From: Halorubrum saccharovorum DSM 1137
GTDB taxonomy: Archaea; Halobacteriota; Halobacteria; Halobacteriales; Haloferacaceae
Direction of reading: 5' to 3'
NCBI RefSeq assembly: GCF_000337915.1
Contig: NZ_AOJE01000005.1
Location: 27,636 to 72,067, forward strand
Length of the DNA: 44,432 bases
The notes beneath the pieces were generated by a model that worked only from the letters and a program-made list of their open reading frames with translations, was not told the DNA's origin and made no database searches. Position 1 is the first letter of the stretch. Every line of letters begins with the position of its first letter. Made by a program: the position numbers and the translations under genes. Below are positions 9,722 to 43,934 of this stretch, in pieces.

Positions 9722-9773
9722 ACAGGCGCTTCCGTCGGAGGGGTAATCAGTCTTGGACGCGTTCCCGTCGGAT

Positions 9774-9805: not shown

Positions 9806-11971
9806 TCAGTCGTCCGCCGGTTTCGCGTCGCCCGATTCCGCCCCGTCGCTCGCGCTCTCTCCACCGTCGGTGACGGTGACCGCGATGTCCGCCGCGGCGG
9901 CCTTGTACTCGGGGATCTTCGCCCGTTCGTCGAGCACGTCGTTCGTGAGCCGGTTCGCGGAGGAAGCCGCGAAGTGCGGGGTCGTCCAGACGACGCCCTC
10001 CTTGATGTCCTCGGTCACCTGCGCTTTCACCTCGATCTCGCCGCGTCGAGACCGGAGCGTCACCATGTCCCCGTCCTCGATGCCGTACTCCTCGGCGTCG
10101 TTCGGATGCACGTCGACGAAGTTCTCCGGGTGCTGGCGCGAGAGCGTCGGCGACCGCCGGCTCATCGTCCCCGTGTTGTAGTGCTCTTCGAGCCGAGCGG
10201 TGGTGAGGATCAGCGGGTACTCCTCGTCGGGCACCTCCGCTGGCGGCTGGTGGCGGACGCCCTCGATCTGCCCGAGGCCGCTCTCGGTGTCGAACGAGTC
10301 GGCGTAGAGGTACTGGTCGCCCTCGTCGCCCTCCTCGTAACAGGGCCACTGGATCCCGGTCTCGCCGAGCGCGTCGTAGGTCATCCCGTGGTAGATCGGA
10401 CACACCTCTCGGAGCTCCTCGAAGACGGCCTCCACGTCGTCGAACCGGAACTCGTCCTCGCTGAAGAGGCGACTACCGACCTCCATCAGGATGTCGAGGT
10501 CGTGCTTCGTGTTCTCGTGGACCTTCTCGGCGCCGCGCATGCGCTGGACCCGCCGGTCGGTGTTGGTGACGGTGCCGCCGCGCTCGGCCCACGTCGTCGC
10601 CGGGAGGACCACGTCCGCGAGCTCCGCGGTCTCGGTCATGAAGATGTCCTGTGCGACCATGAAATCGAGCGACCGAAGGCGCTCTTCGACCTCGTTGCCG
10701 TCGGGCTCGCTCATGATCGGGTTCTCGCCCATCACGTACAGCCCCTTCACCGAGCGGCCCGCCTCGTGGGAGATCTCCACGTTGGTGAGGCCGGGCTCGT
10801 CGGGCACCTCGAACCCCCACACGTCCTCGACGCTCTCGCGGGCCTCGTCGTCGTCGACGAGCTGGTACCCGGGGAGGACGTTCGGCATCGCGCCCACGTC
10901 GCTCGTCCCCTGGACGTTGTTCTGTCCGCGGAGGGGGTTGACGCCGGTACCGGGCTTCCCGAGGTTCCCCGTGATCAGCGCGAGGTTGATCTCGTTTTGA
11001 ACGTTGTCGACGCCGCAGGTGTGCTGGCTCATCCCCATCCCGGTGAAGATGGCGGCGTTGTTCGCCATCGCGTACTTCTCGGCGGCGAGCTCGATGTCTT
11101 CGAGCGGGACGCCGGCCTCCTCGGCGGCCGCCTCCTTGTCGAAGTCTTCGAGCGTCTCCTTCAGGTCCTCGAACCCCTCCGTGCGCTCCTCGATGAACCC
11201 CTCGTCGATCCAGCCCGCGTCCGGCTCCTCTTCGTGGCGTTCGAGGATCGTCTTCAGGACGACGTTGAGAAGCGGGATGTCGGCGCCGGGGTTGAGCTGG
11301 AGGTGCATGTGCCGCTCGGTCTCGTCGATCTCGAACGACCGGGTGGTCTTGTTGGCGTGCGGGTCGACCTGGATGACGGTCGCGCCCTCCAACACGGCCT
11401 GTCGGAAGTACTGGCTGTTGGCGATCGGGTGCTGCTCGCCGGGGTTCGCGCCCTGGATCCAGAGCACGTCGGCCGACTCCTCCAAGTCGGCCATGCTGTT
11501 CGTCATCGCGCCCGCGCCGAGGCTGGTCCGGAGCGCCCACACCGTCGAGGCGTGGCACATCCGGGTGCAGTTGTCGACGTTGTTCGTGCCGTAGCGGCGC
11601 GCGATCTTCTGAAGGAGGTAGTTCTCCTCGTTCATCGTCTTCGAGGAGCCGAAGAATCCCATCGCGTCGGGGCCGTGCTCGTCGCGGATTCCCTCCATCT
11701 CCGAGACGATCCGCGAGTAGGCCTCCTCCCACGTCGCCTCGCGGAACTCTCCGTCCTCTCTGATCAGCGGCTCCGTCAGTCGGTCCTCGTGGTCGACGAC
11801 CTGCGTCGCCGCGCCGCCTTTGATGCACACTCGCCCCTCGTTGACGGGCGCCTCTCCCCACGGCATGAAGTTCACGTCGCCGGGGTCGTCGCCTTGATTC
11901 ACCTTGATCCCGCAGCCGACGCCGCAGTACGGACAGATCGTGTTCACCGGTTCGTCGTCCTCAGCAGACAT
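9806..11971 (-). CDS. Molybdopterin-dependent formate dehydrogenase, catalytic subunit (Cys type)
   Basis: A 721-residue member of the DMSO-reductase superfamily. The N-terminal [4Fe-4S] site is Cys13, Cys16, Cys20 and Cys49 (CPYCGVGC, then RVCIKGG). The active-site block NCTRMCHAST places Cys139-His140 where E. coli FdhF has selenocysteine140-His141, identifying it as a formate dehydrogenase with cysteine encoded by TGC. Molybdopterin-binding regions follow (QGANPGEQHP, GMGMSQHTCG, the C-terminal domain from about residue 590). There is no Tat signal, so it is cytoplasmic. No electron-transfer subunit is adjacent, so its acceptor is unknown. Start ATG 11971 is preceded at about 27 nt by TAAATCA on the minus strand. 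The neighbouring fhs and moaC support a formate role. Confidence 0.92.
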   Translation of the reverse strand: MSAEDDEPVNTICPYCGVGCGIKVNQGDDPGDVNFMPWGEAPVNEGRVCIKGGAATQVVDHEDRLTEPLIREDGEFREATWEEAYSRIVSEMEGIRDEHGPDAMGFFGSSKTMNEENYLLQKIARRYGTNNVDNCTRMCHASTVWALRTSLGAGAMTNSMADLEESADVLWIQGANPGEQHPIANSQYFRQAVLEGATVIQVDPHANKTTRSFEIDETERHMHLQLNPGADIPLLNVVLKTILERHEEEPDAGWIDEGFIEERTEGFEDLKETLEDFDKEAAAEEAGVPLEDIELAAEKYAMANNAAIFTGMGMSQHTCGVDNVQNEINLALITGNLGKPGTGVNPLRGQNNVQGTSDVGAMPNVLPGYQLVDDDEARESVEDVWGFEVPDEPGLTNVEISHEAGRSVKGLYVMGENPIMSEPDGNEVEERLRSLDFMVAQDIFMTETAELADVVLPATTWAERGGTVTNTDRRVQRMRGAEKVHENTKHDLDILMEVGSRLFSEDEFRFDDVEAVFEELREVCPIYHGMTYDALGETGIQWPCYEEGDEGDQYLYADSFDTESGLGQIEGVRHQPPAEVPDEEYPLILTTARLEEHYNTGTMSRRSPTLSRQHPENFVDVHPNDAEEYGIEDGDMVTLRSRRGEIEVKAQVTEDIKEGVVWTTPHFAASSANRLTNDVLDERAKIPEYKAAAADIAVTVTDGGESASDGAESGDAKPADD

Positions 11972-11990
11972 AGTTCTCACCCTGACGTAC

Positions 11991-12028
11991 GATCATGATT
12001 TACGATCTATGATCCACTCGCATGAGTG
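11991..12028 (-). promoter_or_regulatory. fdh promoter region with direct and inverted repeats
   Basis: On the minus strand a TAAATCA box (around 11996-12002) lies about 27 nt from the fdh ATG. It is bracketed by GATCAT (11991-11996) and ATGATC (12009-12014). TACGATC occurs twice on the plus strand, and a further inverted repeat CACTC-GCAT-GAGTG covers 12015-12028. Such symmetry around the TATA/BRE region would suit a regulator, which is not identified. Confidence 0.4.
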
Positions 12029-12100
12029 TATCGGTGGCCCTTGCGAAGGAGACGCAGCCGGTCGCCGAACCGTTTTGTCGACCGGGGCCGTTCGACGGGT

Positions 12101-12745
12101 ATGGACCCGTCGCTCGCCGACGTCGAGGACCGCGTCGACGACCACGTCGAGACGTATCGGGAGTCCGCTCCTTTCCACCCCGTGGAGGCGGAGGCGATCG
12201 GGTCGCTCTCGGACGCGTTCCGAGCCGGCGAGTACGGGAAGCGGGACGTCGAGTGGGTGGTTCGCTGGTACTTCCGGCGGGCCGTGACCGACATCGACCA
12301 CGACGAGCGGCGTGCGGCCGAGGAGGCCGTCTCCGACACGGAGCCGCGAGACCTCCGCGGCGCGCTGTGGGACGCGATCGACGCGCTGGACGAGGCGGAC
12401 GCGGCTGACGACGCCCGAGGCCCCGCGCACCGCCGCGCCCTCGACGCGCTGACGCAGATTCCGGGAGTGGACGTGGAAGTCGCCTCCGCGCTGCTGTGGT
12501 TCCTCGATCCGGACGAGCACCTCGTCGTCGGCGAGCGCGAGTGGGCGGTCGTCGCCGCGCTGACCGACGACTCCCCCGCCGCCGGCGACCTCGACGACGC
12601 GTATCCGGAGCCAATGACGATCGACGCGTACGACCGGTATCTCGACGCGGTACGAGACATCGCGGACCGGCTCGGCGTCGACCACTGGCACCTGTACATG
12701 GTGCTCCGGAGCGTCCACGCGGAGGCGTTCGAGGGCGAGGCGTGA
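12101..12745 (+). CDS. Haloarchaeal protein with helix-hairpin-helix-like segment
   Basis: A 214-residue acidic soluble protein that I cannot assign to a named family. Residues about 111-140 read TQIPGVDVEVASALLWFLDP, which resembles the helix-hairpin-helix of DNA glycosylases (I/LPGVG, then ASxxLxF). It is followed by HLVVGEREW, similar to the VID region after that motif. No catalytic Lys/Asp of the HhH-GPD type stands out, so a DNA- or RNA-binding role is only an inference. ATG 12101 is preceded by CCGTTTTGTC about 27 nt upstream. It is convergent with gcvT. Confidence 0.7.
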   Translation: MDPSLADVEDRVDDHVETYRESAPFHPVEAEAIGSLSDAFRAGEYGKRDVEWVVRWYFRRAVTDIDHDERRAAEEAVSDTEPRDLRGALWDAIDALDEADAADDARGPAHRRALDALTQIPGVDVEVASALLWFLDPDEHLVVGEREWAVVAALTDDSPAAGDLDDAYPEPMTIDAYDRYLDAVRDIADRLGVDHWHLYMVLRSVHAEAFEGEA

Positions 12746-12773
12746 CCGGCGGAGAAGAGGGCAGTGACCGATC

Positions 12774-13946
12774 CTACCGGTCGAGGAACGGCGGAACGAC
12801 GACCTCGGCACGCTTCTCGTCGCCGCGCACGACGACGCTCACCTCGGTGCCCGGGTCGGCGTAGCGCTCGTCGAGATACCCCAGCCCGATCGGCTCGCCG
12901 AGCGTGGGGCTCATCGTGCCGGAGGTCAGCTGACCGACCCGCGTGAGGTCGCCGTCGGTGACGGCGTACCCGTTCCGGGGAACGCCGCGTTCGAGCAGGC
13001 GGACCCCGACGAACGTCTCGTCGACGCCCTCCTCCGTCTGCGCTTCGAGGGCGTCGCGGCCGACGAACTCCGTGTCGAGCTTCACGACGAAGCCGATCCG
13101 GGCCTCGTAGGGGGTCCGCGGCTCGGTGTCCGGGTCGAAGTCCTGTCCCGAGAGCAGGAACCCCATCTCCGTGCGGAGGGTGTCGCGCGCGCCGAGCCCG
13201 CAGGGCTGGGCGCCCCGCGGCGCGTCGGCGAACGCCTCCCAGACGCTCTCGGCGTCGCCCGCGGGGCACATCACTTCGAAGCCGTCCTCGCCGGTGTAGC
13301 CGGTCCGGGCGACCCAGCTGTCGACTTCATCGACGGCGGCGACCGTCGCCTCGAACTTCGAGAGATCGACGACTCGGTCGTCGGGGGTCGCCTCGCCGAG
13401 CGCGTCGGCCGCGTCCGGCCCCTGCACCGCGAGCATGGCCCAGTCGTCGGTGGCGTTCACGACCGCGGCGTCGAGCCCCTCCTCGTCCCGGTAGTCGACC
13501 CACCGGTCGTACATCTCCTCGTCGTGGCCCGCGTTGGGGACGAAGAGGTAGGCGGGGTCGCCGGAGCTGGCGTCGAGGTCGCGGTCGAGCCCGGCGAGCG
13601 CGTCGGCGCCCTCTCCCGCTTCGATCCCATCCGGGAGGCGGTAGACCACCGTGTCGTCGAGCATGACGCCGTCCGCGTTCGTGACCGCGGCGTACTGGGA
13701 GTCGCCAGGGTCGAGCGCCGTCACGTCGTTGGTCGTGAGCCGGTTCATCAGCGCCGTCGCGTCCGGCCCCGAGACCTCGATCTCGCCCATGTGCGACACG
13801 TCGAAGACGCCGAGCGAGTCGCGGACCGCGGCGTGCTCCTCGCTGATCGAGTCGAACTCGACTGGCATCTGCCACCCGCCGAAGTCGGTGAACTTCGCGC
13901 CGCGTTCCTCGTGGATCTCGCGGAGGGGAGTGCGTCGGTCTGGCAT
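12774..13946 (-). CDS. gcvT: Aminomethyltransferase (glycine cleavage system T protein)
   Basis: A 390-residue GcvT that transfers the aminomethyl carbon of glycine to tetrahydrofolate, giving methylene-THF. The N-terminus TPLREIHEERGAKFTDFGGWQMPVEF and the substrate/folate-binding stretches FDVSHMGEIEV, RLTTNDV and RTGYTGEDGFEV are characteristic. The C-terminal barrel contains VGVRLLERGVPRNGY and GQLTSGTMSPTLG. Slightly longer than bacterial GcvT because of acidic loops. A TATA-like CCTTAGG lies about 27 nt upstream of the ATG, implying a leaderless message. gcvH and gcvP are not adjacent here: the next gene downstream is convergent. Confidence 0.95.
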   Translation of the reverse strand: MPDRRTPLREIHEERGAKFTDFGGWQMPVEFDSISEEHAAVRDSLGVFDVSHMGEIEVSGPDATALMNRLTTNDVTALDPGDSQYAAVTNADGVMLDDTVVYRLPDGIEAGEGADALAGLDRDLDASSGDPAYLFVPNAGHDEEMYDRWVDYRDEEGLDAAVVNATDDWAMLAVQGPDAADALGEATPDDRVVDLSKFEATVAAVDEVDSWVARTGYTGEDGFEVMCPAGDAESVWEAFADAPRGAQPCGLGARDTLRTEMGFLLSGQDFDPDTEPRTPYEARIGFVVKLDTEFVGRDALEAQTEEGVDETFVGVRLLERGVPRNGYAVTDGDLTRVGQLTSGTMSPTLGEPIGLGYLDERYADPGTEVSVVVRGDEKRAEVVVPPFLDR

Positions 13947-25709: not shown

Positions 25710-26093
25710 CTACAGCGTGATCACGTGGTCGACGCCGACCTCGCCGAGCGCCGCGTAGAGGTCCGGGAAGCAGCCGACCGTCGCGCCCTCGACCGTGTCC
25801 GTCGGCTCGTAGTGGTCGCGACCGTGCTCGTCGGTGTGATCGAACTCCGCGAGCCCGCGGCGGGTCGCGCACTGGTCGCACAGCATGAGGAGGATCTCCT
25901 GCTCGGCGGCCACGTCCGCGAGCCGCTGTCCCAGCGGGTCGTCCTCGCGGAGCGCGTAGGTGTTGTCGTGGAAGAAGAACATTCCGACCACGTCGACGCC
26001 GTGGGCCTCGGCCTCCAACTGCGGGAGGATCATGTCTCCAAGCACGTAGTCGATGGTCTGTCCGGCCGTCGCGAAGACGTACGCTACCTTCAT
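25710..26093 (-). CDS. DsrE/F-like small sulfur-relay protein
   Basis: A 127-residue protein with the DsrE/F fold pattern: MKVAYVFATAGQTIDYVLGDMILPQL, a central hydrophobic strand VVGMFFFHDNTYAL, and LLMLCDQCATRRGL with Cys72 and Cys75. A third Cys is near residue 107 (GATVGCFPD). Family members accept or pass persulfide sulfur on such cysteines, usually with TusA and rhodanese partners. Last gene of a minus-strand run with the propeller, rhodanese-like and second propeller genes, so a cytoplasmic sulfur relay is likely. Its exact partner is not shown. Confidence 0.8.
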   Translation of the reverse strand: MKVAYVFATAGQTIDYVLGDMILPQLEAEAHGVDVVGMFFFHDNTYALREDDPLGQRLADVAAEQEILLMLCDQCATRRGLAEFDHTDEHGRDHYEPTDTVEGATVGCFPDLYAALGEVGVDHVITL

Positions 26094-26161: not shown

Positions 26162-27187
26162 TCAGACCACGACCGATCCGAACGGGTACGCCGGCGTGTC
26201 AGCCGTCCAGACGGTCCCCGACTCGACGTCGACGAGGGACACCCGGTCGTCGTCGTAGTGCGAGACGGCGAGCCGCCCGCCGCCGACGGGAGTCGCGACC
26301 AGCCCGGGCGCCGGCGTCTCGACGACCGCCCCGTCGAGCGATCGGAGCCGGGCGGCACCGGCGTCGAGCACCCACCAATCGCCGGCGATTTCGAAGAGCT
26401 CGACGGGCCGGGAGAACCCCTCGTGGACCACGATCGGCTCCAGGTTCCGGCCGAGCTCGTGGACGACGCCGTCGCCGCGGCCGGGAACGAATACGCGGTC
26501 CTCGGTCGCGACGAGGTCGTAGGGATCGGCGCCGACCGCGGCTTCCGTGTGGACCGGCTCGGCTGAGGCGGCGTCTCCCCCGACATCGCCGCCGGGATCG
26601 AAGGCGATCACGCGGGCGCCGCGCTGGTCGACCGCGTACCCGCGGTCCCCGTCCGGCGAGAGCGCGACGCCCTGGACGCGGACGCCCGGCCCGGCGTCGA
26701 TCGCGCCGATCCGCTCGCGGCGCTCGGTGTCGACGACGTCGACGACGCCCTCGCGGCGGCTCCCGGAGTAGAGCCGGTCGCCGTCGGGAGCGACCGCGAT
26801 CTCGTGCGGCTCCGCGCCGACGGCGACGCGGTCGACGAGCGTCAGGCCCTCGGGGTCGATGACGGCGAGCGCGTCGCCGGCGGAACAGGAGACGTACAGC
26901 TCCCCGTTCGCGGTCGCGAAATGGGACGGTCCCAACACGCCGGTCTCGATCCGAGTCACCTCGCCGTCCGGGTCGACCGCGGTGACGGCCCGCTCGCCCA
27001 TGGTCGCGACGACGGTCCGCCCGCGACAGGTCGTCGCGTGGACCGGGTGGCTCCCGACCGGGACCTCGCCGAGCCGCGCTCCCGTATCGAGCGCGAACAG
27101 CGCCAAGAGGTCGTCCCCCTCGCAGGGGACCGCGAGGACGCGGTCGGCGGACGTGCCGGCGCCGCTCCCGTGGCCGTCCGCGGTCAT
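26162..27187 (-). CDS. Cytoplasmic YncE-like beta-propeller protein
   Basis: A 341-residue protein of repeated beta-propeller blades with YncE/PQQ-like motifs (DTGARLGEVPVGSHPVHAT; IDPEGLTLVDRVAVGAEPHEIAVAPDG; VDTERRERIGAIDAG). It has no signal peptide or lipobox. It contains only a few Cys residues (PCEGDD, TTCRGR, VSCSAGD). The role is not known, but it lies 4 nt after the rhodanese-like gene's stop on the same strand and 68 nt before dsrE, so it belongs to the sulfur-linked operon. It may bind a small ligand or scaffold its neighbours. Confidence 0.8.
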   Translation of the reverse strand: MTADGHGSGAGTSADRVLAVPCEGDDLLALFALDTGARLGEVPVGSHPVHATTCRGRTVVATMGERAVTAVDPDGEVTRIETGVLGPSHFATANGELYVSCSAGDALAVIDPEGLTLVDRVAVGAEPHEIAVAPDGDRLYSGSRREGVVDVVDTERRERIGAIDAGPGVRVQGVALSPDGDRGYAVDQRGARVIAFDPGGDVGGDAASAEPVHTEAAVGADPYDLVATEDRVFVPGRGDGVVHELGRNLEPIVVHEGFSRPVELFEIAGDWWVLDAGAARLRSLDGAVVETPAPGLVATPVGGGRLAVSHYDDDRVSLVDVESGTVWTADTPAYPFGSVVV

Positions 27188-27191: not shown

Positions 27192-28292
27192 TCATCCCGT
27201 ACAGGAGAAGTCGCCGCCGTCGTCGTCGCCGCCGACGCTCCCCTCCGTCTCGATCACGACGTTCGTCGCCGTCTCGACGGGGTACCGCCCGCGGTCGCTA
27301 TCGACGTTCGCCCACTCGCCGAAGCCGCCGTCGTAGAGCCGCACGTCCTCGAACCCGATCGCCTTCAGCGTCAGCCACGTCGAGGTCGGGTCCACGTTGT
27401 CGTCGCCGTAGACGACGACGGTCCCGCCTCGGTCGAGTTCGGCCTCGACCTCGTACAGCCGGACGAGCCGTCCCGGCTCCGTCATCTGCCGCCCCGCGAC
27501 GTTCCCGACCCAGTGGACGTCGACCGCGCCGGGGAGGTGCCCGTGCCGGTCGTGGTCGTCGTTCAGTGCGTCGGAGCCCGCGGCGGCGAGGTACGCCTCG
27601 GGCACGCGCACGTCCACCAGCCCGGGGCCGTCCCCGTTGAACGTCCCGACCCGGTCGGCGAGCCACTCGCGGGTGACCCACGTCGACGACGCGGGGTCCG
27701 GCTCGTAGTCGGTCGACGAGACACCGTCCCGCGACCCCGTCCCGAGGCGGCCGTTCCAGGCCGAGAGCCCGCCGTTGAGGACCCGAATCTCCCCCTCGTG
27801 GCCGACCGCGGCGAGCGCGAACGCGACGCGGGTGACCCGGGAGCCGACGCTCGCGCCGTAGACGAGCACGTCGTCCTCCGGGCTCACGCCGATCTCGCCG
27901 AACGCGGTCGCGATCGCGTCGGTGTCGGGCGCGTCGCCCGCCTCGGTCGACTCGCGGGCCGTGATCGCGTCGAAGGGGACGCGTCGGGCGCGGTAGACGC
28001 GCTCCTCGCGGAACCGATCCGCGTCGCGTGCGTCGAGAACGACCGTGTCCTCGCGGTTGTCGGCGAGCCAGCTCGGCCCGACGAAGTGGCCGACGTTCCC
28101 CGACACCTCGCTCCGCGCCGCCACGTCGGCGGGGGTCGTCACGCCGAGACAGCCCGCCGTGCTCGCCGCGCCCGCGACGGTCGCACCGGCCGCCGCGCGC
28201 AGGAGGCCGCGGCGAGTCGCGTTCTCCGAGGCGCCAGAGGCGTCGGAGTCGTCTCCGGCCTCGCCGTCGTCTGTCGAACGTTCTCGTGTCAT
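27192..28292 (-). CDS. Tat-exported lipoprotein with tandem rhodanese domains lacking both catalytic Cys
   Basis: A 366-residue protein. The Tat signal TRRGLLRAAAGATVAGA ends at a lipobox TAGC (Cys48), so it is exported and probably lipid-anchored. Two rhodanese domains follow (about 70-185 and 205-340). At the catalytic loop, where active rhodaneses have Cys, domain 1 reads VYGASVGSR (Gly146) and domain 2 VYGDDNVDPTST (Gly296). The only other Cys is Cys364 in the last four residues, on a flexible Gly/Asp tail (GGDDDGGDFSCTG). This suggests a structural or carrier role with sulfur on the tail. ATGA overlap with the upstream propeller gene; cytoplasmic partners follow. Confidence 0.85.
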   Translation of the reverse strand: MTRERSTDDGEAGDDSDASGASENATRRGLLRAAAGATVAGAASTAGCLGVTTPADVAARSEVSGNVGHFVGPSWLADNREDTVVLDARDADRFREERVYRARRVPFDAITARESTEAGDAPDTDAIATAFGEIGVSPEDDVLVYGASVGSRVTRVAFALAAVGHEGEIRVLNGGLSAWNGRLGTGSRDGVSSTDYEPDPASSTWVTREWLADRVGTFNGDGPGLVDVRVPEAYLAAAGSDALNDDHDRHGHLPGAVDVHWVGNVAGRQMTEPGRLVRLYEVEAELDRGGTVVVYGDDNVDPTSTWLTLKAIGFEDVRLYDGGFGEWANVDSDRGRYPVETATNVVIETEGSVGGDDDGGDFSCTG

Positions 28293-29644
28293 CCGCAGTA
28301 GCAGTGGTCGTCCATACACCACGACGCCTCCATCTCGCCGAACGTGACCCCGAGCGAGGCGAGCGACGCCTGTACCCTCGCGACGGCGTCGCCCTCCGGG
28401 CGGACGGTCCCGCCGGCGGCCCCCGTGGGCGCCTCGCCCACCCCGATCGTCTCGACGACCTCGCGGCTCGCGTGGTCGATCACGGCGACCTGGTTGGCGT
28501 CCTGTACGGGGACGTACAACTTCTCGCGGGTCGGCCCCCACGAGGCGGAGATGGCGCTTCCCCCCACGTCCAGCGTCGTCTCGTACTCGAAGCTCTCCAG
28601 ATCGATCACGCCGACGCCCTCGCCGGGGATGAGGAGGTACGCGGCCTCGTTGTCCGGGGACACCTCGCTCGTGATCGGCGCGCCCGGGAGCCCGTCGTCG
28701 CGGGTGATCTTCCCAATCTCCTCGGGGCTCTCCGGGTCGGAAATGTCCCAGAGGCTCTCGGAGCCCTCGCGGGGAACCTCGGGCTCGCCGCCGAGCGTCC
28801 CCTCCCCGTTCTCGACGAGGAGGTACTCCCCGTCGAACGCGGCGGTACACATGAACGGGAGGACGTTCCCCTCGGTGACCGGCTCGCCCGCGTCGACGCG
28901 GGCGACCGTCTCGAACGGGTCGACGCTCAGCACGCGGATCGCCTCGTCGGCCACGTCGACGACGAACGCGTAGTCGCCGTCGGGCCCGAGCGTCATGTCG
29001 CAGGGGCCGACGTAGCCCGTCTCGATCTCCGCGGTCACCTCGCCGAACGCCTCGCTGTCGCGGTCGGCGTCGACGCGGAAGATCGCGTGGTTCTCGTCGC
29101 CCTCGGGCGCCATCCCGGTGGTGCCGCCCGACGCGATCAGCAGGTGATCACCGTCGGGCGTGACGTTCGGGTAGTTCGGGCCGTAGCCGGTCTCGACGAA
29201 GGCGACCTCCTCTAACGTGCGCTGGTCGATGCCGCGGACGCCGCCGGAGACGTTGAGCCAGAGCACGTCGTGGTCGGCGTCGGTCCCGGTGGAGTACTGG
29301 TTGGCCGGGAACGAGGCGGTCGTCCCGAGGAACGCGGAGGTGAGCAGCTCGTCGGACTCGGCGTCGATGACACTGACGGTCCGGTCCCCGTTGTTGAACA
29401 CGAACATCGTCGGCGCGGGGTCGTCGCCGCCCCCGCCTCCCCCGCCGGAACAGCCCGCGAGCGCGGCCGTCGCCCCGACGGCGCCGGACGTTCGGAGCAG
29501 CCGACGCCGGTCGATCCCCTCCGCGAAGGGGTTCCGGCGGTCGTCGTTCGCCAGGTCGCTCCCCTTCGCGGGGCGCGGGGGCGCGTCCCCCTCCGAGGGA
29601 CCCGAAGCCGGGTCGGTCGTCCCGCAGCCGCAGTCGTCGCTCAT
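28289..29644 (-). CDS. Tat-exported YncE-like beta-propeller lipoprotein with Cys-rich C-terminus
   Basis: A 451-residue protein. After a polar N-region containing CGCG (Cys5, Cys7), it has the Tat motif DRRRLLRTSG and lipobox ALAGC (Cys65). A Gly-rich linker leads into a YncE-like seven-blade propeller (FVFNNGDRTVSVIDAESDEL; YGPNYPNVTPDGDHLLIASGG; DYAFVVDVADEAIRVLSVD). It ends in CMDDHCYCG (Cys443, Cys448, Cys450). This tail could bind metal or carry sulfur. A TTTAGCC box about 27 nt before the ATG at 29644 makes it the likely first gene of a four-gene operon. It lies divergent from the YeeE/YedE transporter, 154 nt away. Confidence 0.83.
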   Translation of the reverse strand: MSDDCGCGTTDPASGPSEGDAPPRPAKGSDLANDDRRNPFAEGIDRRRLLRTSGAVGATAALAGCSGGGGGGGDDPAPTMFVFNNGDRTVSVIDAESDELLTSAFLGTTASFPANQYSTGTDADHDVLWLNVSGGVRGIDQRTLEEVAFVETGYGPNYPNVTPDGDHLLIASGGTTGMAPEGDENHAIFRVDADRDSEAFGEVTAEIETGYVGPCDMTLGPDGDYAFVVDVADEAIRVLSVDPFETVARVDAGEPVTEGNVLPFMCTAAFDGEYLLVENGEGTLGGEPEVPREGSESLWDISDPESPEEIGKITRDDGLPGAPITSEVSPDNEAAYLLIPGEGVGVIDLESFEYETTLDVGGSAISASWGPTREKLYVPVQDANQVAVIDHASREVVETIGVGEAPTGAAGGTVRPEGDAVARVQASLASLGVTFGEMEASWCMDDHCYCG

Positions 29645-29798: not shown

Positions 29799-31007
29799 AT
29801 GTTGCTGTCGCCCGTCGCCTACGTCGGCGTCTCTATCGCGGTCGGGTTGTCGTTCGGGATCCTGCTACAGAAGGCGCGGTTCTGCTTCGTCAGCGCCTTC
29901 CGCGACTTCGTCGCGTTCAAAGACACCCGCGTGCTGAAGGGGCTGCTCGCGGGGATCGCCGTGATGACCGTGTTTTGGAGCGTGCAGGCCACGTTTGGCT
30001 ACTTCCGCGGCTTCTGGACGCCCGCGTGGGGGCTCGGCTCGCTGTTCGGCGGGTTCGTCTTCGGGCTCGGCATGACGCTCGCCGGCGGCTGCGCCTCCGG
30101 CACCCTCTACCGCGCCGGACAGGGGTACCTCCAGTTCTGGCTCGTCCTCCTCTTCATGTTCGTCGGCTACGTCCTCTTCGCGTTCGCGTTCCCCGTCGCC
30201 GAGACGTACTACTTCGCGACGCTGAACCCGTTCGAGGGGCAGACGCTGTACCTCTCCTTACCGTTCTCGCCCGCCGTGACGGGGGTGTTGGCGGTGTCGC
30301 TCGGTACCGTCGCGTACGCGTTCGTGAAGGGGAAGAGCCAGCTCCCCGACGACCCCTCCGGCGGGGCCGGCGTGGGCGCCGACACCCGCGCGCAGGCGGC
30401 GGTCGGCGCCTCCCGAACGCTCTCGGCCGTCTCGGTCGGCCTGCGCGGCATCGCCGACGGCACGGTCGCGTACGTCCGCGCGCTGCGCGACGACGACCGC
30501 CCGCTGAAAGTCCGACTCCGCGACTCGTGGGACGCGCGGACCGCGGGCGTGGCGATGGCGCTCGTCGCGAGCCTCTGGTTCTACGTCCACGGCCACTGGG
30601 CGATCACCGGCAGCGAGGCGCGCTGGGCGGGCTACCTGCTGGCGGGCGCCGGCTTCGACGTGGCCAGCGTCGAGTACTGGGGCTCGATCCTGTTCCGCGA
30701 CGGCAACATCTCGCTGACCATCGACATGGTGATGATCGCGTCGCTGATCGTCGGCTCCTTCGTCGCCGCGTACGCCTCCGGCGACTTCCGGATCCGCAAG
30801 CCGAAGCTGAATCGGGTGCCGAACTACGCCGCGGGGGGCCTCCTGATGGGCGTCGGCTCGCGGCTCGCCGCCGGCTGCAACATCGCGAACCTCTTCTCCG
30901 GCGTCGCGCTGCTGTCGGTCCACTCCTTCATCGCCGGCGCGGGGATCATCCTCGGCGTCTACGTGATGACCCACTACATGTACCGGGAGGTCGGCTGCGC
31001 GATCTGA
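29799..31007 (+). CDS. YeeE/YedE family sulfur-compound transporter
   Basis: A 402-residue membrane protein made of two similar halves, each with several helices. Conserved Cys occur in KARFCFVSAF (Cys29) and in the paired motifs LAGGCASGTLYRAGQG (Cys98) and LAAGCNIANLFSG (second half). Such Cys line the thiosulfate path in YeeE. A long polar loop (about residues 190-245) links the halves. The family imports thiosulfate, or selenium-linked compounds in YedE members. It is divergent from the Tat-exported rhodanese-like and propeller genes, which fits uptake of an extracellular sulfur species. Confidence 0.9.
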   Translation: MLLSPVAYVGVSIAVGLSFGILLQKARFCFVSAFRDFVAFKDTRVLKGLLAGIAVMTVFWSVQATFGYFRGFWTPAWGLGSLFGGFVFGLGMTLAGGCASGTLYRAGQGYLQFWLVLLFMFVGYVLFAFAFPVAETYYFATLNPFEGQTLYLSLPFSPAVTGVLAVSLGTVAYAFVKGKSQLPDDPSGGAGVGADTRAQAAVGASRTLSAVSVGLRGIADGTVAYVRALRDDDRPLKVRLRDSWDARTAGVAMALVASLWFYVHGHWAITGSEARWAGYLLAGAGFDVASVEYWGSILFRDGNISLTIDMVMIASLIVGSFVAAYASGDFRIRKPKLNRVPNYAAGGLLMGVGSRLAAGCNIANLFSGVALLSVHSFIAGAGIILGVYVMTHYMYREVGCAI

Positions 31008-31653: not shown

Positions 31654-32022
31654 TCACTCGTGGAGCCATTCGTACCACTCACCGAGATCGACGAGGTGGT
31701 TTTCGACCCCCTCTGACCCGTACTGGGAGAACACCTCGTCGACCGTTCGAGCGAGTCCCTCCGGATCAGCGTCGGGGAGCTTCTGGTCGTGGTAGAGTAA
31801 GATCCCCGCGTGGTCGTGTTCGTCGTGTAGCGACTCGAAATCCTTCGCGTTGTTCGTCAGCAGGACCGTGCCGGACTCGCCGCACCACGAGACCAGTTCG
31901 GCGTCGGTTGTACGTTCACCGAACCTGTCTTTCGCCTGCTCGATGTCGTACCCGCGTTCTCGGAGTGTCCGTTCGAAGACGCGACCGACGTGTTCGTCGA
32001 GGAGGATCTGAGGCCCCGTCAC
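31654..32022 (-). CDS. DUF5615 PIN-like protein (probable toxin)
   Basis: A 122-residue protein of the DUF5615/Mut7-C-like PIN fold. It starts ILLDEHVGRVFERTLRERGYDI with the first acidic residues (Asp9, Glu10), continues DAELVSWCGESGTVLLTNNAKDF, and ends GILLYHDQKLPDADPEGLARTVDE. Family members are predicted ribonuclease toxins paired with DUF433 antitoxins. Its start overlaps the DUF433 stop by 4 nt (ATGA), the standard coupling. Putative active-site Asp residues are retained, so it looks intact. Confidence 0.85.
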   Translation of the reverse strand: MTGPQILLDEHVGRVFERTLRERGYDIEQAKDRFGERTTDAELVSWCGESGTVLLTNNAKDFESLHDEHDHAGILLYHDQKLPDADPEGLARTVDEVFSQYGSEGVENHLVDLGEWYEWLHE

Positions 32023-32294
32023 TGCACGGTCTCTTTCGGCTTCAGCGACGATTCTCGGAGACGCTCGAACGCCGCCTCGTTCTCCTGTTCGAGTTCCCGC
32101 ATCTCTTCGATGTGAGCGTAATAGTGAGAGAGGGACTCGTACACCTCTGCGAGGGACACGTCGAACTGATCCGCGACCTGAGCGGGGGACTGTCCGCCAC
32201 CGATCACCCGCGCGGCGACGTGGCGCACGCCGACCCGCGTTCCGTCGATTCGGGGTTCGCCGCCAAGTACGTCGTCGTCGCGGATGATACTCAT
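32019..32294 (-). CDS. DUF433 family antitoxin
   Basis: A 91-residue protein. SIIRDDDVLGGEPRIDGTRVGV is the DUF433 signature: GxPxIxGTR followed by a winged-helix stretch, SPAQVADQFDVSLAEVYESLSHYYAH. A charged C-terminal helix follows. It is the expected partner of the downstream DUF5615 PIN-like gene, and it probably binds DNA and neutralises the toxin. A TATATTTTT box on the plus strand at 32321-32328 (AAAAATATA on the coding strand) lies 27 nt from the ATG, giving a leaderless, autoregulated-type promoter. Confidence 0.86.
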   Translation of the reverse strand: MSIIRDDDVLGGEPRIDGTRVGVRHVAARVIGGGQSPAQVADQFDVSLAEVYESLSHYYAHIEEMRELEQENEAAFERLRESSLKPKETVQ

Positions 32295-32443: not shown

Positions 32444-32779
32444 TCAGGCGTCCGCCGCCGCGCCGGTCTCCAGGTCGAAGTCCCACTCCTCGTAGCCGCC
32501 GGACATGCTGGCGACGAGCACGCCGTCCTCGACGCCCTCGTAGCTCTGGATTAACATTGCGGCCTGCTTCGACGACTGGCCGACCGGACACGCGCAGACC
32601 ACGTCGGTGTCGTCCCAGTCGATGTCGGGGACGCGGGAGGGGAGATCGCCCAGCGGGACGTTGATCGCGCCGGGGATGTGGCCCCGCTCGTACTCCGCCG
32701 GCGGGCGCGTGTCGATGACGCGGACGTCGCCCTTCTGGACTCGCTCGTTGACTTCCTCGGGGGTGAGTTCCTCGACCAT
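32444..32779 (-). CDS. Single-domain rhodanese sulfurtransferase
   Basis: A 111-residue rhodanese. It reads VRVIDTRPPAEYERGHIPGAINVPLGDLP, the standard CH2A region, then the active loop ACPVGQSSKQAA, in which Cys64 is the likely persulfide-carrying residue (Cys62 is two residues before). It ends VLVASMSGGYEEWDF. It probably receives or donates sulfur in concert with the TusA-like protein, whose gene ends only 2 nt upstream of its ATG. The C-terminal eight residues are a short acidic/Ala tail. Confidence 0.92.
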   Translation of the reverse strand: MVEELTPEEVNERVQKGDVRVIDTRPPAEYERGHIPGAINVPLGDLPSRVPDIDWDDTDVVCACPVGQSSKQAAMLIQSYEGVEDGVLVASMSGGYEEWDFDLETGAAADA

Positions 32780-32781: not shown

Positions 32782-33081
32782 TTACTCCTTCCGCATGAAG
32801 ATCCGGTAGCGACCGTCGCCCGACTTCCACACCTTGGCGGTCGCGTCGTCGCCGACCGCCTTCGGGACGTTCTCCGTGCTCGGGACGTGGTCGGTCTTCT
32901 GGACCAGCACGTCGCCGGCGTCGAGCCCCGCGATGGCCTTCTTCGCCTCGACCTGCGGGTACGGACAGACCTCGCCGGTCATGTCCTGTACCTCGGTCGC
33001 GTCGTCCAAGAGCGACTCGGCGGTCGCGTCGTCGAGCTCGTCGGGCATCTCGACGACGTCGTCCCACGATGGTTGACTCAT
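32782..33081 (-). CDS. TusA-family sulfurtransferase with acidic N-terminal extension
   Basis: A 99-residue protein. The C-terminal 68 residues are a TusA (SirA-like) domain with the CPYPQVEAKKAI motif (Cys39 as sulfur carrier) and PSTENVPKAV later. The first 33 residues form an acidic extension (DDVVEMPDELDDATAESLL). TusA passes sulfur to thiouridine, Moco or sulfur-oxidation pathways. Here the immediate partner is the rhodanese 2 nt downstream. A TATA-like TTACC around 33108 and the ATG at 33081 fit a leaderless start. It is divergent from cysteine synthase. Confidence 0.9.
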   Translation of the reverse strand: MSQPSWDDVVEMPDELDDATAESLLDDATEVQDMTGEVCPYPQVEAKKAIAGLDAGDVLVQKTDHVPSTENVPKAVGDDATAKVWKSGDGRYRIFMRKE

Positions 33082-33231
33082 GGCGAGTCGTACGCGTCTG
33101 CCCCGGTAACCCCTTTCGTGACCGGCAGGCTTCTCCCGTATCTCTGACGGATGATCGCCGCGTACGACCGCGGTGACCGTCGAGAACGCCGTTTCCGTCG
33201 GACTCTTATCGGGGAGCGATCTACGGGACCC

Positions 33232-34251
33232 ATGAGCGAATACGTCGTCGACGAGTCGGCGATCTTCGAGACGCCGCTTCTGGAGCTCGATCTCGACATC
33301 GAGTCCGACGCGGACGTGTACGCGAAAGCCGAGTGGTTCAACCTCTACGACGCCCCGCACGGCGGCGGCTCGGTCAAGTCGCGGATCGCGAAGGGAATGT
33401 TAGACGGCGCCGAGGAGCGCGGCGACCTCGACCCCGGCGTCACCGTGATCGAGCCCACCTCGGGCAACACCGGCAGCGAGGTCGCGCGCCTCGCGAACGC
33501 CCGCGGCTACGACGTGGAGATCGTCATGCCGGACAACGCCGCGGGCGGGAAGGTCGACGCCGTCCGCGACGCCGGCGCGGAGATCCACTTCGTCGACGCC
33601 AACCTCGGCTACGACGCCGTCATCGAGCGCTGCGAGGAGATCATAGACGCGGATCCAGGCGCCTACTACCGGCCGAACCAGTACGAGAATCCCGACAACC
33701 CCGGCACACACGAGCGAACGACCGCCCGAGAGATCTACGAGGCGACCGACGGCGAGGTGACCCACTTCGTCGCGGGCGTCGGCACGGGCGGGACGGTCAC
33801 CGGAACCGGCCGAGGGCTGACCGACCTGACCGACGGCGCGGCCGAGATCGTCGGCTTCGAGCCGGACGAGCAGCTCCACGCCATCGACGGGCTGAAATAC
33901 CTCAAGTCGGGCGACCACTACCACCCCGACACGTACGACGAGTCGGTCCTCGACCGGACGGAGTACGTCACGACTTCCGACGCCTACGACCGCGCTCGGG
34001 CGCTCCGCGAGCGCTACCTGGACAGCGAGATCCCGATCGCGGACCCCGGCCAACACGACGAGGCGACGATCCGCGAGCACCTCCGGGTCGACGACCAGTT
34101 CGTCGTCGGCACCTCCGCGGGCGGCGGCGCGGCGGCGGTCGCGGGGCTCGACGAGGCCGGCGCGATCGCGGACGACGACGTGGTCGTGTTCATGCTGTGC
34201 GACCGCGGCGACAAGTACGCGGACATCCCGCTGTGGGAGGAGTATCTCTGA
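33232..34251 (+). CDS. PLP-dependent cysteine synthase family protein
   Basis: A 339-residue fold type II PLP enzyme. The PLP lysine Lys49 is in GGGSVKSRIA, the substrate loop is PTSGNTGSEVARLA (residues 75-88), and GVGTGGTVTGTGR is the phosphate-binding turn. These match O-acetylserine sulfhydrylase/cystathionine beta-synthase relatives; the sulfur donor could be sulfide or protein persulfide. ATG 33232 follows TCTTATC about 27 nt upstream. The neighbouring TusA, rhodanese and SAMP/UbaA genes suggest it belongs to a sulfur-assimilation neighbourhood. The start site of the longer frame at 33151 is not supported. Confidence 0.91.
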   Translation: MSEYVVDESAIFETPLLELDLDIESDADVYAKAEWFNLYDAPHGGGSVKSRIAKGMLDGAEERGDLDPGVTVIEPTSGNTGSEVARLANARGYDVEIVMPDNAAGGKVDAVRDAGAEIHFVDANLGYDAVIERCEEIIDADPGAYYRPNQYENPDNPGTHERTTAREIYEATDGEVTHFVAGVGTGGTVTGTGRGLTDLTDGAAEIVGFEPDEQLHAIDGLKYLKSGDHYHPDTYDESVLDRTEYVTTSDAYDRARALRERYLDSEIPIADPGQHDEATIREHLRVDDQFVVGTSAGGGAAAVAGLDEAGAIADDDVVVFMLCDRGDKYADIPLWEEYL

Positions 34252-34292: not shown

Positions 34293-34376
34293 GTCGGGGT
34301 CGAATCGCCCGCCGCTGGCCGTCGTGGTCAAATCGCCTGCCGCTGGCCGTCGGGGTCCTATCGCCCGCCGCTGGCC
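34293..34376. repeat. 28-nt tandem repeat, three copies, over the SAMP stop codon
   Basis: Three units (34293-34320, 34321-34348, 34349-34376) sharing GTCG(G/T)GGTC, then ATCGCC and GCCGCTGGCC, with a few mismatches. The last copy carries the final codons and the stop of the SAMP gene (minus strand), and the first lies 42 nt after the cysteine synthase stop. Confidence 0.85.
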
Positions 34377-34621
34377 GCCGGGATGACCCGGACCTGCGCG
34401 TCGTCGGGCACGTCCGCATCGAGGCCGTCGACGGGCGTTCCCTCGACGTAGACGTTGATGAACTCCTTGATCTCGCCGTCCTCGACGACGCTGTCTCTGA
34501 GCTCCGGCCCGTGTTCGTCCGCGTGGTTCTCGAACAGCTCGCGGACCGTCTCGCCGGCGACTTCGACCTCGGAGGTCGAGGATCCCCCGACCAGCACGGC
34601 CGGCAGTTTGATCGTTGCCAT
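34358..34621 (-). CDS. Ubiquitin-like small modifier protein (SAMP/MoaD-like) with Gly-Gly-Arg C-terminus
   Basis: An 87-residue beta-grasp protein of the MoaD/ThiS/SAMP type: MATIKLPAVLVGG, FENHADEHGPELRDSVV, EFINVYVEGTPVDGL, ending VRVIPAASGGR. Haloarchaeal SAMPs are adenylated on a C-terminal diglycine by the E1 UbaA and joined to protein lysines, or carry sulfur. Here Arg87 follows Gly85-Gly86, so the protein would need trimming first. The stop is in a tandem repeat. A CTTTTTG box about 27 nt upstream supports ATG 34621. It is divergent from ubaA, 250 nt away. Confidence 0.83.
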   Translation of the reverse strand: MATIKLPAVLVGGSSTSEVEVAGETVRELFENHADEHGPELRDSVVEDGEIKEFINVYVEGTPVDGLDADVPDDAQVRVIPAASGGR

Positions 34622-34840
34622 ACCCCCCGGTTCGCCGTCCTCCTCAAAAAGGGACCCGCCGACGGCAATGTACACCCCGGTCTAACACGGCTCGTCGGAC
34701 GAAAAAACGGAGAGTGCCGGTCGTCTCCGTCGATCGCCGTCGAGACGCGACCCGCTCAGTTCGCGGCGGGACGCCACGGATCGGTCGTTCGTCGCGATCG
34801 CATCTCCGAGAAGGCGGCAGTTCCTCAGGCGGGCGGCCGG

Positions 34841-34871: not shown

Positions 34872-35735
34872 ATGAGCGATCTCGATCTCGATCCCACCCA
34901 GCTCGACCGGTACTCCAGACACATCATCATGGACGACGTGGGTCCCGAGGGGCAGAAGGCCCTGCTCGACGCCGAGGTGCTCGTGCTCGGGGCGGGCGGG
35001 CTCGGCGCGCCGATCATCCAGTACCTCGCGGCCGCCGGCGTCGGCACGCTCGGGATCGCCGACGACGACGAGGTGGAGCTGTCGAATCTCCAGCGCCAGG
35101 TGATTCACGGAAACGACGACGTGGGACGCAAGAAGGTCGACTCCGCCGCCGACTTCGTCGAACAGCTCAACCCGGACATCGACGTGCGGAAACACGAACT
35201 GCGCGTCCGGCCCGACAACATCGAGGAGCTCATCGACGGCTACGACTTCGTCGTCGACGGGACGGACAACTTCGCGACGCGGTACCTCGTCAACGACGCC
35301 TGCACGCTCGCCGGGATCCCCTTCTCGCACGGCTCGATCTTCAAGTTCGAAGGGCAGGTGACCACGTTCGCGGGCGACGACGACTCGCCGTGTTACCGGT
35401 GTCTGTTCCCCGAGGCGCCGCCGGAAGGGATGGTCCCGAACTGCGCGACCGCGGGCGTGCTCGGCGTCCTCCCCGGCACCGTCGGCTGCCTGCAGGCGAC
35501 CGAGACGGTCAAACACATCATCGGCGAGGGCGAGACGCTCGACGGCTCGATGCTCTTCTTCGACGCGCTCGACATGGAGTTCGACAAGGTCGAGATCCCC
35601 AAGCGCGACGACTGCCCCGTCTGCGGCGACGACCCCGCCATCGAGTCGGTCCACGACGTGGAGTACACCGCCTCCTGCGCGATCGACGTCGGCGGCGACG
35701 ACGAGGCGGAGCCCGAGATCGAAGCGAGCGACTGA
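34872..35735 (+). CDS. ubaA: UbaA: E1-like SAMP-activating enzyme (ThiF/MoeB family)
   Basis: A 287-residue E1-type adenylyltransferase that activates SAMPs for conjugation and for thiouridine and Moco sulfur transfer. The nucleotide loop is LGAGGLGAPIIQ (residues 39-50), followed by DDDEVELSNLQRQVIH. The catalytic Cys191 lies in VPNCATAGVLGVLPG. Zinc ligands are Cys174 and Cys177 (CYRC) and Cys248 and Cys251 (CPVC). The last 30 residues are an acidic tail. Length and layout match haloarchaeal UbaA, which lacks the rhodanese tail of eukaryotic MOCS3. The gene lies beside SAMP and JAMM protease genes. Confidence 0.93.
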   Translation: MSDLDLDPTQLDRYSRHIIMDDVGPEGQKALLDAEVLVLGAGGLGAPIIQYLAAAGVGTLGIADDDEVELSNLQRQVIHGNDDVGRKKVDSAADFVEQLNPDIDVRKHELRVRPDNIEELIDGYDFVVDGTDNFATRYLVNDACTLAGIPFSHGSIFKFEGQVTTFAGDDDSPCYRCLFPEAPPEGMVPNCATAGVLGVLPGTVGCLQATETVKHIIGEGETLDGSMLFFDALDMEFDKVEIPKRDDCPVCGDDPAIESVHDVEYTASCAIDVGGDDEAEPEIEASD

Positions 35736-36602: not shown

Positions 36603-37031
36603 TTAGCGCTCGCTCCGCACGGAAACGGTCTCCTGTTCGAACCCCTCGTCGTCGCCGCGCCAGCGCCACGAGCCGACGAACGGGTAGCCGTCCAGCGCGC
36701 AGATGACGTACGAGTGGCCGGGCCACGTCGCTCGCGCGGCGTCGGTCTCGCTCGGGTGGGTCGGCCCGGTCGGGTGCGAGTGATAGAACCCCACCACGTC
36801 GAGCCCGTCGTCCTCGATCGCCTCGATGAGTTCGAACTGCTCCTCGGGATCGATCAGGTACCGGATCTGGGGCGTCTCGGCCACGTTCTCGGCCTGATAC
36901 GTGTCAGTGACGACGCTCGGCTCCCCGTCGTCGCCGTGGGTGCCGGCGAGCACGCCGCAGATCTCCGCCTCGCCGCCGCCGTACGCGTGGTAGACGATGT
37001 CGTCGTACGCCGCCCGTGAGAGCTCGATCAT
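36603..37031 (-). CDS. JAMM/MPN+ metalloprotease (SAMP desampylase, HvJAMM1-like)
   Basis: A 142-residue zinc protease of the JAMM family. The catalytic Glu23 lies in EICGVLAG and the JAMM motif is HSHPTGPTHPSETD (His84, His86, Ser94, Asp97). In Haloferax such an enzyme cleaves SAMPs from target proteins. There is no transmembrane segment and no extra domain. ATG 37031 follows an ACTTATCC box on the minus strand about 27 nt upstream. It is encoded 870 nt from ubaA with an AT-rich gene between, so the two may be functionally linked. Confidence 0.92.
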   Translation of the reverse strand: MIELSRAAYDDIVYHAYGGGEAEICGVLAGTHGDDGEPSVVTDTYQAENVAETPQIRYLIDPEEQFELIEAIEDDGLDVVGFYHSHPTGPTHPSETDAARATWPGHSYVICALDGYPFVGSWRWRGDDEGFEQETVSVRSER

Positions 37032-42257: not shown

Positions 42258-43934
42258 TCAGCAGGCGACGCGCACCTGCCTTTGCGGCTCCGGCTCCCCG
42301 ACCGGCCCGCTCGGACCGACCGCCTGCTCGACGTGGAAGACGGTCACGGACGCGAGGCTGCGGTCCGATCGCTCACAGACGTACGCCGCCACCGGCCGAT
42401 ATCGCGCCTCTCCGGCGTTCTTCATCCGGAATCCGAACTGGTGCCAGAGGGTCGTCGGGTACGTCTCGGCCGCGTCCGGCGGTCGGTCGTACGTGACCGC
42501 CCGCCCGTCGCGAACGTCGATCGATTCGCCCGATTCGAGCGTTCCTCGGACGACGTACCAGCTGGAGGCGTCCGGCGGGTTCGGCGCGAAGAACGACCAG
42601 CTCACCTCCGACAGTTCGCCGGCTGATTCCGACGCCGGGAGGTCGACGAGCCCGACTCCCGCGGCCTGCCACCACACGAGCGCGAGGAAGAAGCTCACGA
42701 GCACCAGGGTAGCTCCCACCCGGACCCCGCGGCGAACCCGCGACGGATCCGGCGGGGCGGTGTCGGCCGCGCCGTCGCCGCCACTTCGGTCGACTCCGGT
42801 CTCGTCTCCGCCGTCACTTCGGTACGGACGGTCCGCCTCCGCGGGTCGATCGGATCCGCGCCGCTTCGACGCGACCGCCTCAACGCGGTCCCAGGCCCCT
42901 GGCGGGAAAAACAGGAGGAGGACCGAGATCATGACGAACGGGAACACGCCGAGCCGCATCGTCGCGGCCATGCCGATGTGTGCGGAGACGAACGCGAGGG
43001 CGACGCCGACCCTGAGCCGCCCGGTCGCGGCGATCAGCAGCACGGACGCCGAAAGGAGCGCGACCCAGAGCCAGTTCACCGTCGCGAGAACCGCGGCGTG
43101 TTCCGAGACGAACGGTCCCAGTCCCACGGTGAACTCCTCTAACTGGAAGATCCGAGGGACGGCGATACCCGACATCCACGCGTCGCTCCGGAACTTTGAG
43201 ACCGCGTTCGCCGCGTAGATCGACACGAGCGTCAGGAGCGTGACGGCCGTTCCGATAGAACAAACTCGCGGAGCGACGCCGCCCGCTCGCTCGTCGGTCC
43301 CACGCTCGTCGGCCCCACGCTCGTCGGCTCCTCGTTCGTCGGCCCCTCGTTCGTCGGCCCCACGCTCGTCGGCCCCTCGTTCGTCGGCTCCTCGTTCGTC
43401 GGCGTCGTCCCGATCGGTACGGCCGCTCCGGCGGCCCGCACTGACCGACCAGCGAGCGTCGAGCGGGAGAAAGAGGCTCAAAAACAGGACCACGACAAGG
43501 ATCGTGTTCCCGCCGTTGATCACGTACGGGTTCCGAGCGTACAGCGACGCGAGCAGGACGAGGGAGAGGACCGTCGACGCCCGCGTTCGATAGCCGACGA
43601 GCAGGCAGACTGCGGCGCAAGCCCCGACCGCGAGCAGTCCCGTTTGCACCCGCGCCGAACCGGACATCGCGTGGATCGAGACGGTCTCTAACAGCGGGTA
43701 TATCTCGGCGAGCGTCGAGCGGGGAAGGACGCCGTCGTCCGTGTAGAACGCGCTTACCGCGGGAATCCGATAGACCAGCAGGTCCGCGAGAAGGAAGAGC
43801 GCCACCGCGATTCGGAAGGCGCCGAGGGCTCTCGGGTCGATCCCGAGATGCGGCGTGGCGCGCTCGCGGAGGGACTCGCGCACCGCGGCGTATCGGGAGC
43901 GCGCTTTCGAGAGGCGCTGGCCTGGTTGCGTCAT
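42258..43934 (-). CDS. HTTM-domain (vitamin K gamma-carboxylase-like) membrane protein
   Basis: A 558-residue protein with an HTTM-type membrane domain. LGIDPRALGAFRIAVALFLLADLLVYR opens it. Several helices follow, then YVINGGNTILVVVLFLSLFLPLDARWS, typical of HTTM proteins. After an acidic repeat loop (ADERG repeats, about residues 180-220) further helices continue to about residue 460. The rest is a soluble beta-rich part (VSWSFFAPNPPDASSWYVVRG). Function in archaea is unknown; bacterial relatives include the vitamin-K-dependent carboxylase fold. It is inserted antisense between the ADH synthase and dehydroquinate synthase genes. Confidence 0.85.
   Translation of the reverse strand: MTQPGQRLSKARSRYAAVRESLRERATPHLGIDPRALGAFRIAVALFLLADLLVYRIPAVSAFYTDDGVLPRSTLAEIYPLLETVSIHAMSGSARVQTGLLAVGACAAVCLLVGYRTRASTVLSLVLLASLYARNPYVINGGNTILVVVLFLSLFLPLDARWSVSAGRRSGRTDRDDADERGADERGADERGADERGADERGADERGADERGTDERAGGVAPRVCSIGTAVTLLTLVSIYAANAVSKFRSDAWMSGIAVPRIFQLEEFTVGLGPFVSEHAAVLATVNWLWVALLSASVLLIAATGRLRVGVALAFVSAHIGMAATMRLGVFPFVMISVLLLFFPPGAWDRVEAVASKRRGSDRPAEADRPYRSDGGDETGVDRSGGDGAADTAPPDPSRVRRGVRVGATLVLVSFFLALVWWQAAGVGLVDLPASESAGELSEVSWSFFAPNPPDASSWYVVRGTLESGESIDVRDGRAVTYDRPPDAAETYPTTLWHQFGFRMKNAGEARYRPVAAYVCERSDRSLASVTVFHVEQAVGPSGPVGEPEPQRQVRVAC
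43291..43410. repeat. 15-nt tandem repeat, about eight units, coding ADERG
   Basis: Units of 15 nt (TCGTCGGCCCCACGC and variants) start at 43291 and recur every 15 nt to 43396, the last diverging. Translated, they give seven ADERG-type repeats in a cytoplasm- or surface-facing loop of the HTTM protein. The reading frame is kept. Confidence 0.88.

Follow-up and report, generated by a model that had tools for sequence, protein, structure and literature searches.

Halorubrum saccharovorum DSM 1137 encodes a tandem rhodanese lipoprotein, here called RHO, that lacks the catalytic cysteine of its fold family, ends in a conserved cysteine-bearing tail, and is encoded beside a YeeE-type membrane protein. 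We tentatively propose, at a little less than an even chance, that RHO is a membrane-anchored extracytoplasmic carrier of sulfane sulfur, derived from a retired tandem sulfurtransferase, whose swinging tail cysteine feeds the YeeE-type protein for cysteine synthesis. The gene lies in the stretch of 44,432 nucleotides analyzed here (the window), together with four genes with which it forms a cluster:

27192..28292, minus strand: RHO, tandem rhodanese Tat-type lipoprotein without catalytic Cys, with a Gly/Asp linker and Cys364 (translation, Pfam, alignment)
28289..29644, minus strand: PROP1, YVTN-type beta-propeller lipoprotein with terminal WCMDDHCYCG (Pfam, alignment, Foldseek)
26162..27187, minus strand: PROP2, beta-propeller protein with no apparent signal peptide (alignment, loci)
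25710..26093, minus strand: DSRE, SaoD/DsrE-family protein (NCBIfam NF040913)
29799..31007, plus strand: YEE, YeeE/YedE/TsuA-type membrane protein ending in YREVGCAI (Sulf_transp, E 4.7e-55)

RHO is a tandem rhodanese without its catalytic cysteine

RHO is translated as 366 amino acids containing two cysteines: Cys48, in a lipobox (STAGC) that, like the accompanying Tat-type signal, was read from the sequence, and Cys364, third from the C-terminal end in the tail (...GGDFSCTG). Pfam matches the Rhodanese domain twice (E 9.2e-29), the two-domain arrangement of tandem rhodaneses and TST/MST; this is the only Pfam match at E values up to 0.1, with no SoxY domain. The best NCBIfam match, PRK11493, falls far under its cut-off. 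A prior sequence-only reading of this DNA had described a tandem rhodanese with these two cysteines and with glycines at both catalytic loops (Gly146 and Gly296), a description that translation and Pfam confirm. Its further statement that both active cysteines have been replaced is right for Gly296 and not for Gly146. The N-domain loop, VYGASVGSR, has Gly146 at the active position, and the corresponding loop of the aligned, solved tandem enzymes 8k55 and 3hzu, YGDK, has no Cys there either; Gly296 is therefore the sole genuine Cys loss. The C-domain loop reads YCRIGERSSHTW in these two enzymes and YGDDNVDPTSTW in RHO, where Gly296 sits in VYGDDNVDPTSTW. With Gly in the C-domain loop position that holds the catalytic Cys of active enzymes, RHO is a member of the tandem rhodanese fold family that stands outside the active enzymes.

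An AlphaFold2 model of RHO had a mean pLDDT of 81, with both domains mostly above 90. Its tail (residues 356-366) fell below 50 and is thus predicted to form a flexible arm. Foldseek placed mycobacterial CysA3, a Thermus rhodanese, and mycobacterial CysA2 in the top ranks (3aax, 3aay, and 1uar best).

The tail cysteine is invariant among RHO orthologues

High-scoring matches to RHO (at least 253 bits, E 6.4e-75 or better) were present in 10 of 293 genomes of the order, and all 10 keep Cys364. A scan of named genomes returned 64 loci, 23 of which (L049-L071) form the tail group; their hosts are mostly Halorubrum, joined by Halobellus clavatus, the uncultured archaeon A07HR60, a Salinarchaeum MAG, and Halobacteriales MAGs. 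After setting aside L003, L021, and L108, which have a stop inside the match, we kept 108 distinct rows. Six of these were dropped, including L017, L022, and L142 (edge), L070 (two pieces, ambiguous stretch), and L071 (partial), which left 27 complete tail orthologues, counting the window's own RHO, and 75 other relatives. All 27 tail orthologues have the tail Cys and terminate in F[ST]C, sometimes followed by TG or N; 26 are missing the loop Cys, which is present in the protein from genome G063. The other relatives keep the loop Cys in 61 cases and miss it in 14, Corynebacterium proteins with Ser among them, so that a missing loop Cys is not in itself exceptional. Among the 75, a Cys within ten residues of the C-terminus occurs once, in the unrelated row L105. 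The homologue comparison suggested by the sequence-only reading bears out the distinction it drew: no close orthologue combines a loop Cys with a missing tail Cys, and tailless relatives with a loop Cys exist as a separate paralogue group of approximately 30-35% identity, represented in the window's own genome by L002 (33-34%).

As a baseline, a Cys lies within the last four residues of 2 of 252 neighboring predicted ORFs of at least 100 aa that match none of the cluster's reference genes; one of the two positives is at a locus edge, and the ORF calls at the loci are crude, with some genes missed. Against this baseline, three adjacent genes (RHO, PROP1, and YEE) with such a Cys are unexpected by chance. 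At the DNA level, the pattern D-F-[ST etc.]-C-T-G-stop had hits in 11 of 39 related genomes, two in G293 and one in every other, and its reversed control matched nowhere in the 39. The RHO gene is the only match in the window's genome.

The tail cysteine probably preceded loss of the loop cysteine

We constructed a tree from 41 rows with loop and tail columns excluded; 21 rows came from the 27 tail orthologues and 20 from the 75 tailless relatives. The 21 tail proteins form one clade (support 96/94), and the tailless loop-Cys paralogues, such as L002, fall in a group separate from them. The G063 protein (row L012), which has both Cys, is sister to the 20 tail proteins without loop Cys, a placement made less sure by its being among the long branches flagged by the tree program. 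Because this deeper member has both, the simplest reading of the sequences is that the tail Cys probably came first and the catalytic loop Cys was lost later. The notion of a relocated Cys, put forward in the sequence-only reading, is therefore not wholly accurate. Were Cys364 a relocated nucleophile reaching back into the pocket that lacks its Cys, RHO would still be a sulfurtransferase; the pocket loop is conserved and the 30-residue linker is in principle long enough, but disorder is predicted for the tail, which, given the G063 protein, probably did not arise as a replacement for the loop Cys, making this a very unlikely account. At the G063 locus (L041, 6194-11981), YEE is accompanied by four tandem rhodanese lipoproteins: three are tailless and keep the loop Cys, and one has both loop and tail Cys. 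PROP1 is absent there.

The loop that replaced the catalytic one is itself conserved: in the tail proteins without loop Cys, N299 and T303 occur in 20/20 and G296 and P302 in 19/20. Other group-specific residues, for example R95, R103, and R182, are each found in 20/20. This conservation argues for a core that was re-used, not one that decayed.

Several trivial origins of the tail were considered and rejected. An artefact or a decayed gene is ruled out by the open, conserved frame and the conserved replacement loop. In many Halorubrum loci an ATG overlaps the stop codon of RHO and can account for its final GGA codon; that the tail is kept merely through overlapping signals is countered by the use of two Cys364 codons (TGT in 23, TGC in 4) and by retention of Cys364 in loci with other endings. 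Selenocysteine at the tail was dismissed for want of any Sec sign, the tail stretch of L008 and L037 having no internal stop and a TGT tail codon. One TGA was reported in the L008 match, and its position was not located.

RHO is consistently encoded beside YEE

The PROP1 stop overlaps the RHO start (ATGA), and PROP2 begins a few bases after RHO. YEE, for which we picked the start codon by comparison with L049, is divergent from PROP1 and upstream of RHO; since the strands are opposite, YEE and RHO are not in one transcript. We followed this arrangement through two sets of 9 and 23 loci, which share some genomes. YEE adjoins RHO in 9/9 and 22/23 loci, the remaining contig (L071) starting inside RHO. 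PROP2 is adjacent in 9/9 and 23/23, PROP1 in 8/9 and 21/23. At the Halorubrum persicum locus L068 (8185-11677), PROP1 is missing, the gap between YEE and RHO is under 200 bp, and the RHO tail Cys is kept. DSRE is full-length in 5/9 and 12/23 loci; in the remaining loci it is broken or did not turn up in the stretch. It may be dispensable, since in L058, L063, and L070 the gene next to PROP2 is reduced to short or broken fragments.

YEE has both the Sulf_transp domain and the three transport cysteines that mark YeeE/TsuA proteins. C26, C95, and C357 (numbered in A3) are present in 10/10 and align with C22, C91, and C293 of Spirochaeta StTsuA; YEE reaches none of the NCBIfam cut-offs for TsuA or YedE. 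Its near-terminal Cys, found also in YEE homologues lacking RHO, probably faces the cytoplasm: going by PMC11073785, natural fusions of YeeE with YeeD would be joined at that end. Of the 50 genomes of the order that match YEE, 40 fall outside the 10 that have a tail orthologue, and YeeE proteins therefore do not need a carrier of this type.

PROP1 ends in C-x(3-4)-C-x-C-G in 27/27 aligned members, a few of them with residues after the G, and members away from the RHO cluster have this tail too. PROP1-type propeller lipoproteins constitute a wider haloarchaeal family, present in 50 of the 293 genomes of the order and often far from any RHO orthologue (L175-L190); retention of the tail there implies a use of its own. 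The neighbors of these off-cluster homologues (DUF3179, pyridine nucleotide-disulfide oxidoreductase, ABC-2, histidinol dehydrogenase, FAA hydrolase) are too mixed to assign a function, and Foldseek on PROP1 retrieved propellers in general. That RHO and PROP1 are neighboring lipoproteins, adjacent in most loci and both ending in Cys tails, would suit a structural role for Cys364, in which a disulfide between proteins, the simplest partner being the PROP1 tail, holds an extracytoplasmic complex on YEE. We find this rather unlikely, as the RHO tail Cys persists without PROP1 (G063/L041, L068) and the PROP1 tail persists in genomes without a RHO orthologue. In PROP2, the residues C22, C101, H50, H89, H128, and H310 are invariant in 9/9 and may constitute a metal or sulfur site.

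Genes for sulfur mobilization and cysteine synthesis surround the cluster

Beyond YEE, the window contains a further group of genes:

32444..32779, minus strand: RHD1, single-domain rhodanese with an active-type Cys (VCACPVGQ) (Pfam on relatives L037, L062)
32782..33081, minus strand: TUSA, TusA/YeeD-like protein with a CPYP motif (family of relative L037)
33151..34251, plus strand: CysK/CysM-type cysteine synthase homologue (PALP; best NCBIfam match cysKM, under cut-off)
34358..34675, minus strand: ThiS-family (SAMP-type) ORF (ThiS, 24.9 bits, cut-off 22.5)
34872..35735, plus strand: UbaA-type SAMP-activating E1 (NF047750, above cut-off)
36603..37031, minus strand: JAMM desampylase (NF041370, above cut-off)

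Rearranged loci, too, carry TusA, RHD1, cysteine synthase, UbaA, and JAMM near the cluster. Cluster-side cysteine synthase is found in L037, L038, L040, L062, and L069 (rearranged loci, other families), UbaA in L037, L038, L039, L062, and L069, and TusA in L037, L038, L039, and L069. This recurrence points to sulfur import and cysteine synthesis. A DUF5615/DUF433 gene pair, which we take to be toxin-antitoxin-like, lies between YEE and RHD1/TusA (31654-32294). Elsewhere in the window, a 648-aa ORF (42258-44204) has a weak HTTM-domain match, and formate-tetrahydrofolate ligase, molybdopterin oxidoreductase, and glycine cleavage T protein occur together at 7997-13946, possibly as a one-carbon cluster.

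These surroundings bear on two other readings of the cluster. SaoD belongs to the SAO organometallic system, and DSRE scores 190.3 bits against the SaoD/DsrE family model NF040913, above its equivalog cut-off of 152; against SaoD proper (NF040732) it scores 125.9, short of the cut-off of 169. Together with a C-x4-C-x-C-G tail on PROP1 that may resemble a thiolate ligand set, this family match would fit a cluster that handles a soft metal or metalloid, bound by the Cys tails. The surrounding genes, however, serve sulfur mobilization and cysteine synthesis, and the single tail Cys of RHO would be a poor chelator alone; we put little credence in this account. Alternatively, RHO and PROP1 might sense extracytoplasmic sulfur and gate YEE rather than carry its substrate. 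SoxT1B is assigned a signaling role in the part of PMC11582611 cited here, and a non-catalytic rhodanese core might suit a sensor, but RHO is anchored outside and no regulator gene was recognized among the shared neighbors scanned, which comprised part of the genes, so that we judge a sensor highly improbable.

A proposed model for sulfur delivery by RHO

In the carrier reading that we favor, sulfane sulfur from thiosulfate or polysulfide would be carried by Cys364 in persulfide or thiosulfonate form, with the rhodanese core serving in binding or docking. The tail of approximately 30 residues would then swing this sulfur to the outer Cys of YEE, C357 (the equivalent of C293 in StTsuA), from which it could pass via C95 and C26 to cytoplasmic TusA and on to RHD1, a UbaA/SAMP thiocarboxylate, and finally cysteine synthesis. 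PROP1 with its CYCG tail, where present, would probably be a redox or loading partner. The sequence-only reading had suggested a carrier or binding protein; the conserved, predicted-disordered tail and the cluster with YeeE-type, TusA, and cysteine synthase genes fit that suggestion, and we regard RHO as a putative carrier. A more general claim, which we consider possible and rather more doubtful, is that haloarchaea have a carrier-fed YeeE system in which a dead tandem rhodanese became a swinging-arm carrier independently of SoxY and, with a CxCG-tailed propeller lipoprotein, loads a YeeE channel with sulfur destined for SAMP/thiocarboxylate-linked cysteine synthesis.

For the step that hands sulfane sulfur to YeeE-type channels, a donor to SoxT has so far only been proposed. 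The relevant section of PMC11582611 calls hand-over from the SoxY tail Cys along YeeE-like channel cysteines conceivable; it also doubts direct Cys-to-Cys transfer, the channel cysteines being ~7 A apart, and reports hydrogen-bonded thiosulfate as a proposal of Ikei and coworkers. RHO, a defined lipoprotein whose one exposed Cys lies beside such a channel in Halorubrum species, would make the question approachable with one point mutant. If our proposal is true, terminal-Cys sulfur carriers evolved more than once, here from a sulfurtransferase minus its own nucleophile. Among open PMC papers, we found no description of the RHO cluster or of a Cys-tailed rhodanese.

Comparison with known systems

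RHO shares two rhodanese domains and its best fold matches with the tandem TST/MST enzymes (CysA2/CysA3/SseA), and differs from them in lacking the C-domain catalytic Cys, in being an exported lipoprotein, and in its Cys tail beyond the fold. Mycobacteria possess a thiocarboxylate route of cysteine synthesis that uses CysO, CysM, and Mec+, which the haloarchaeal surroundings of RHO resemble. With TsuA-TsuB (YeeE-YeeD) of E. coli and Spirochaeta, YEE has in common its domain, its transport cysteines, and a TusA-like protein nearby; unlike TsuA, it is longer (~400 aa), has an extra near-terminal Cys, and has extracytoplasmic lipoproteins in its cluster. A haloarchaeal rhodanese has been proposed before as a polysulfide-binding carrier, in the cited part of PMC6176080. 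That protein differs from RHO in its location in Psr operons, no Psr gene being recognized beside RHO.

The closest functional parallel may be SoxY (SoxYZ), whose C-terminal GGCGG Cys carries sulfur according to the portion of PMC6067878 cited here. Like RHO, it is described as extracytoplasmic, with a Gly-rich C-terminal arm that bears a Cys and a genetic tie to a YeeE-type transporter. The folds are unrelated, the RHO proteins lack the GGCGG motif and end instead in DFSCTG, FTCN, or FSC, and the context is cysteine synthesis rather than sulfur oxidation, with no Sox genes recognized around RHO. PF13501 matched neither G000 nor any control genome. Around SoxT1A, PMC11582611 places a rhodanese, DsrE3C, TusA, and a DsbA-like partner whose extreme C-terminus has a Cys motif. 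The RHO cluster is composed of the same kinds of parts, on scaffolds that are partly unrelated, and it is this likeness to the SoxY/SoxT setting that leads us to favor a swinging-arm carrier for RHO.
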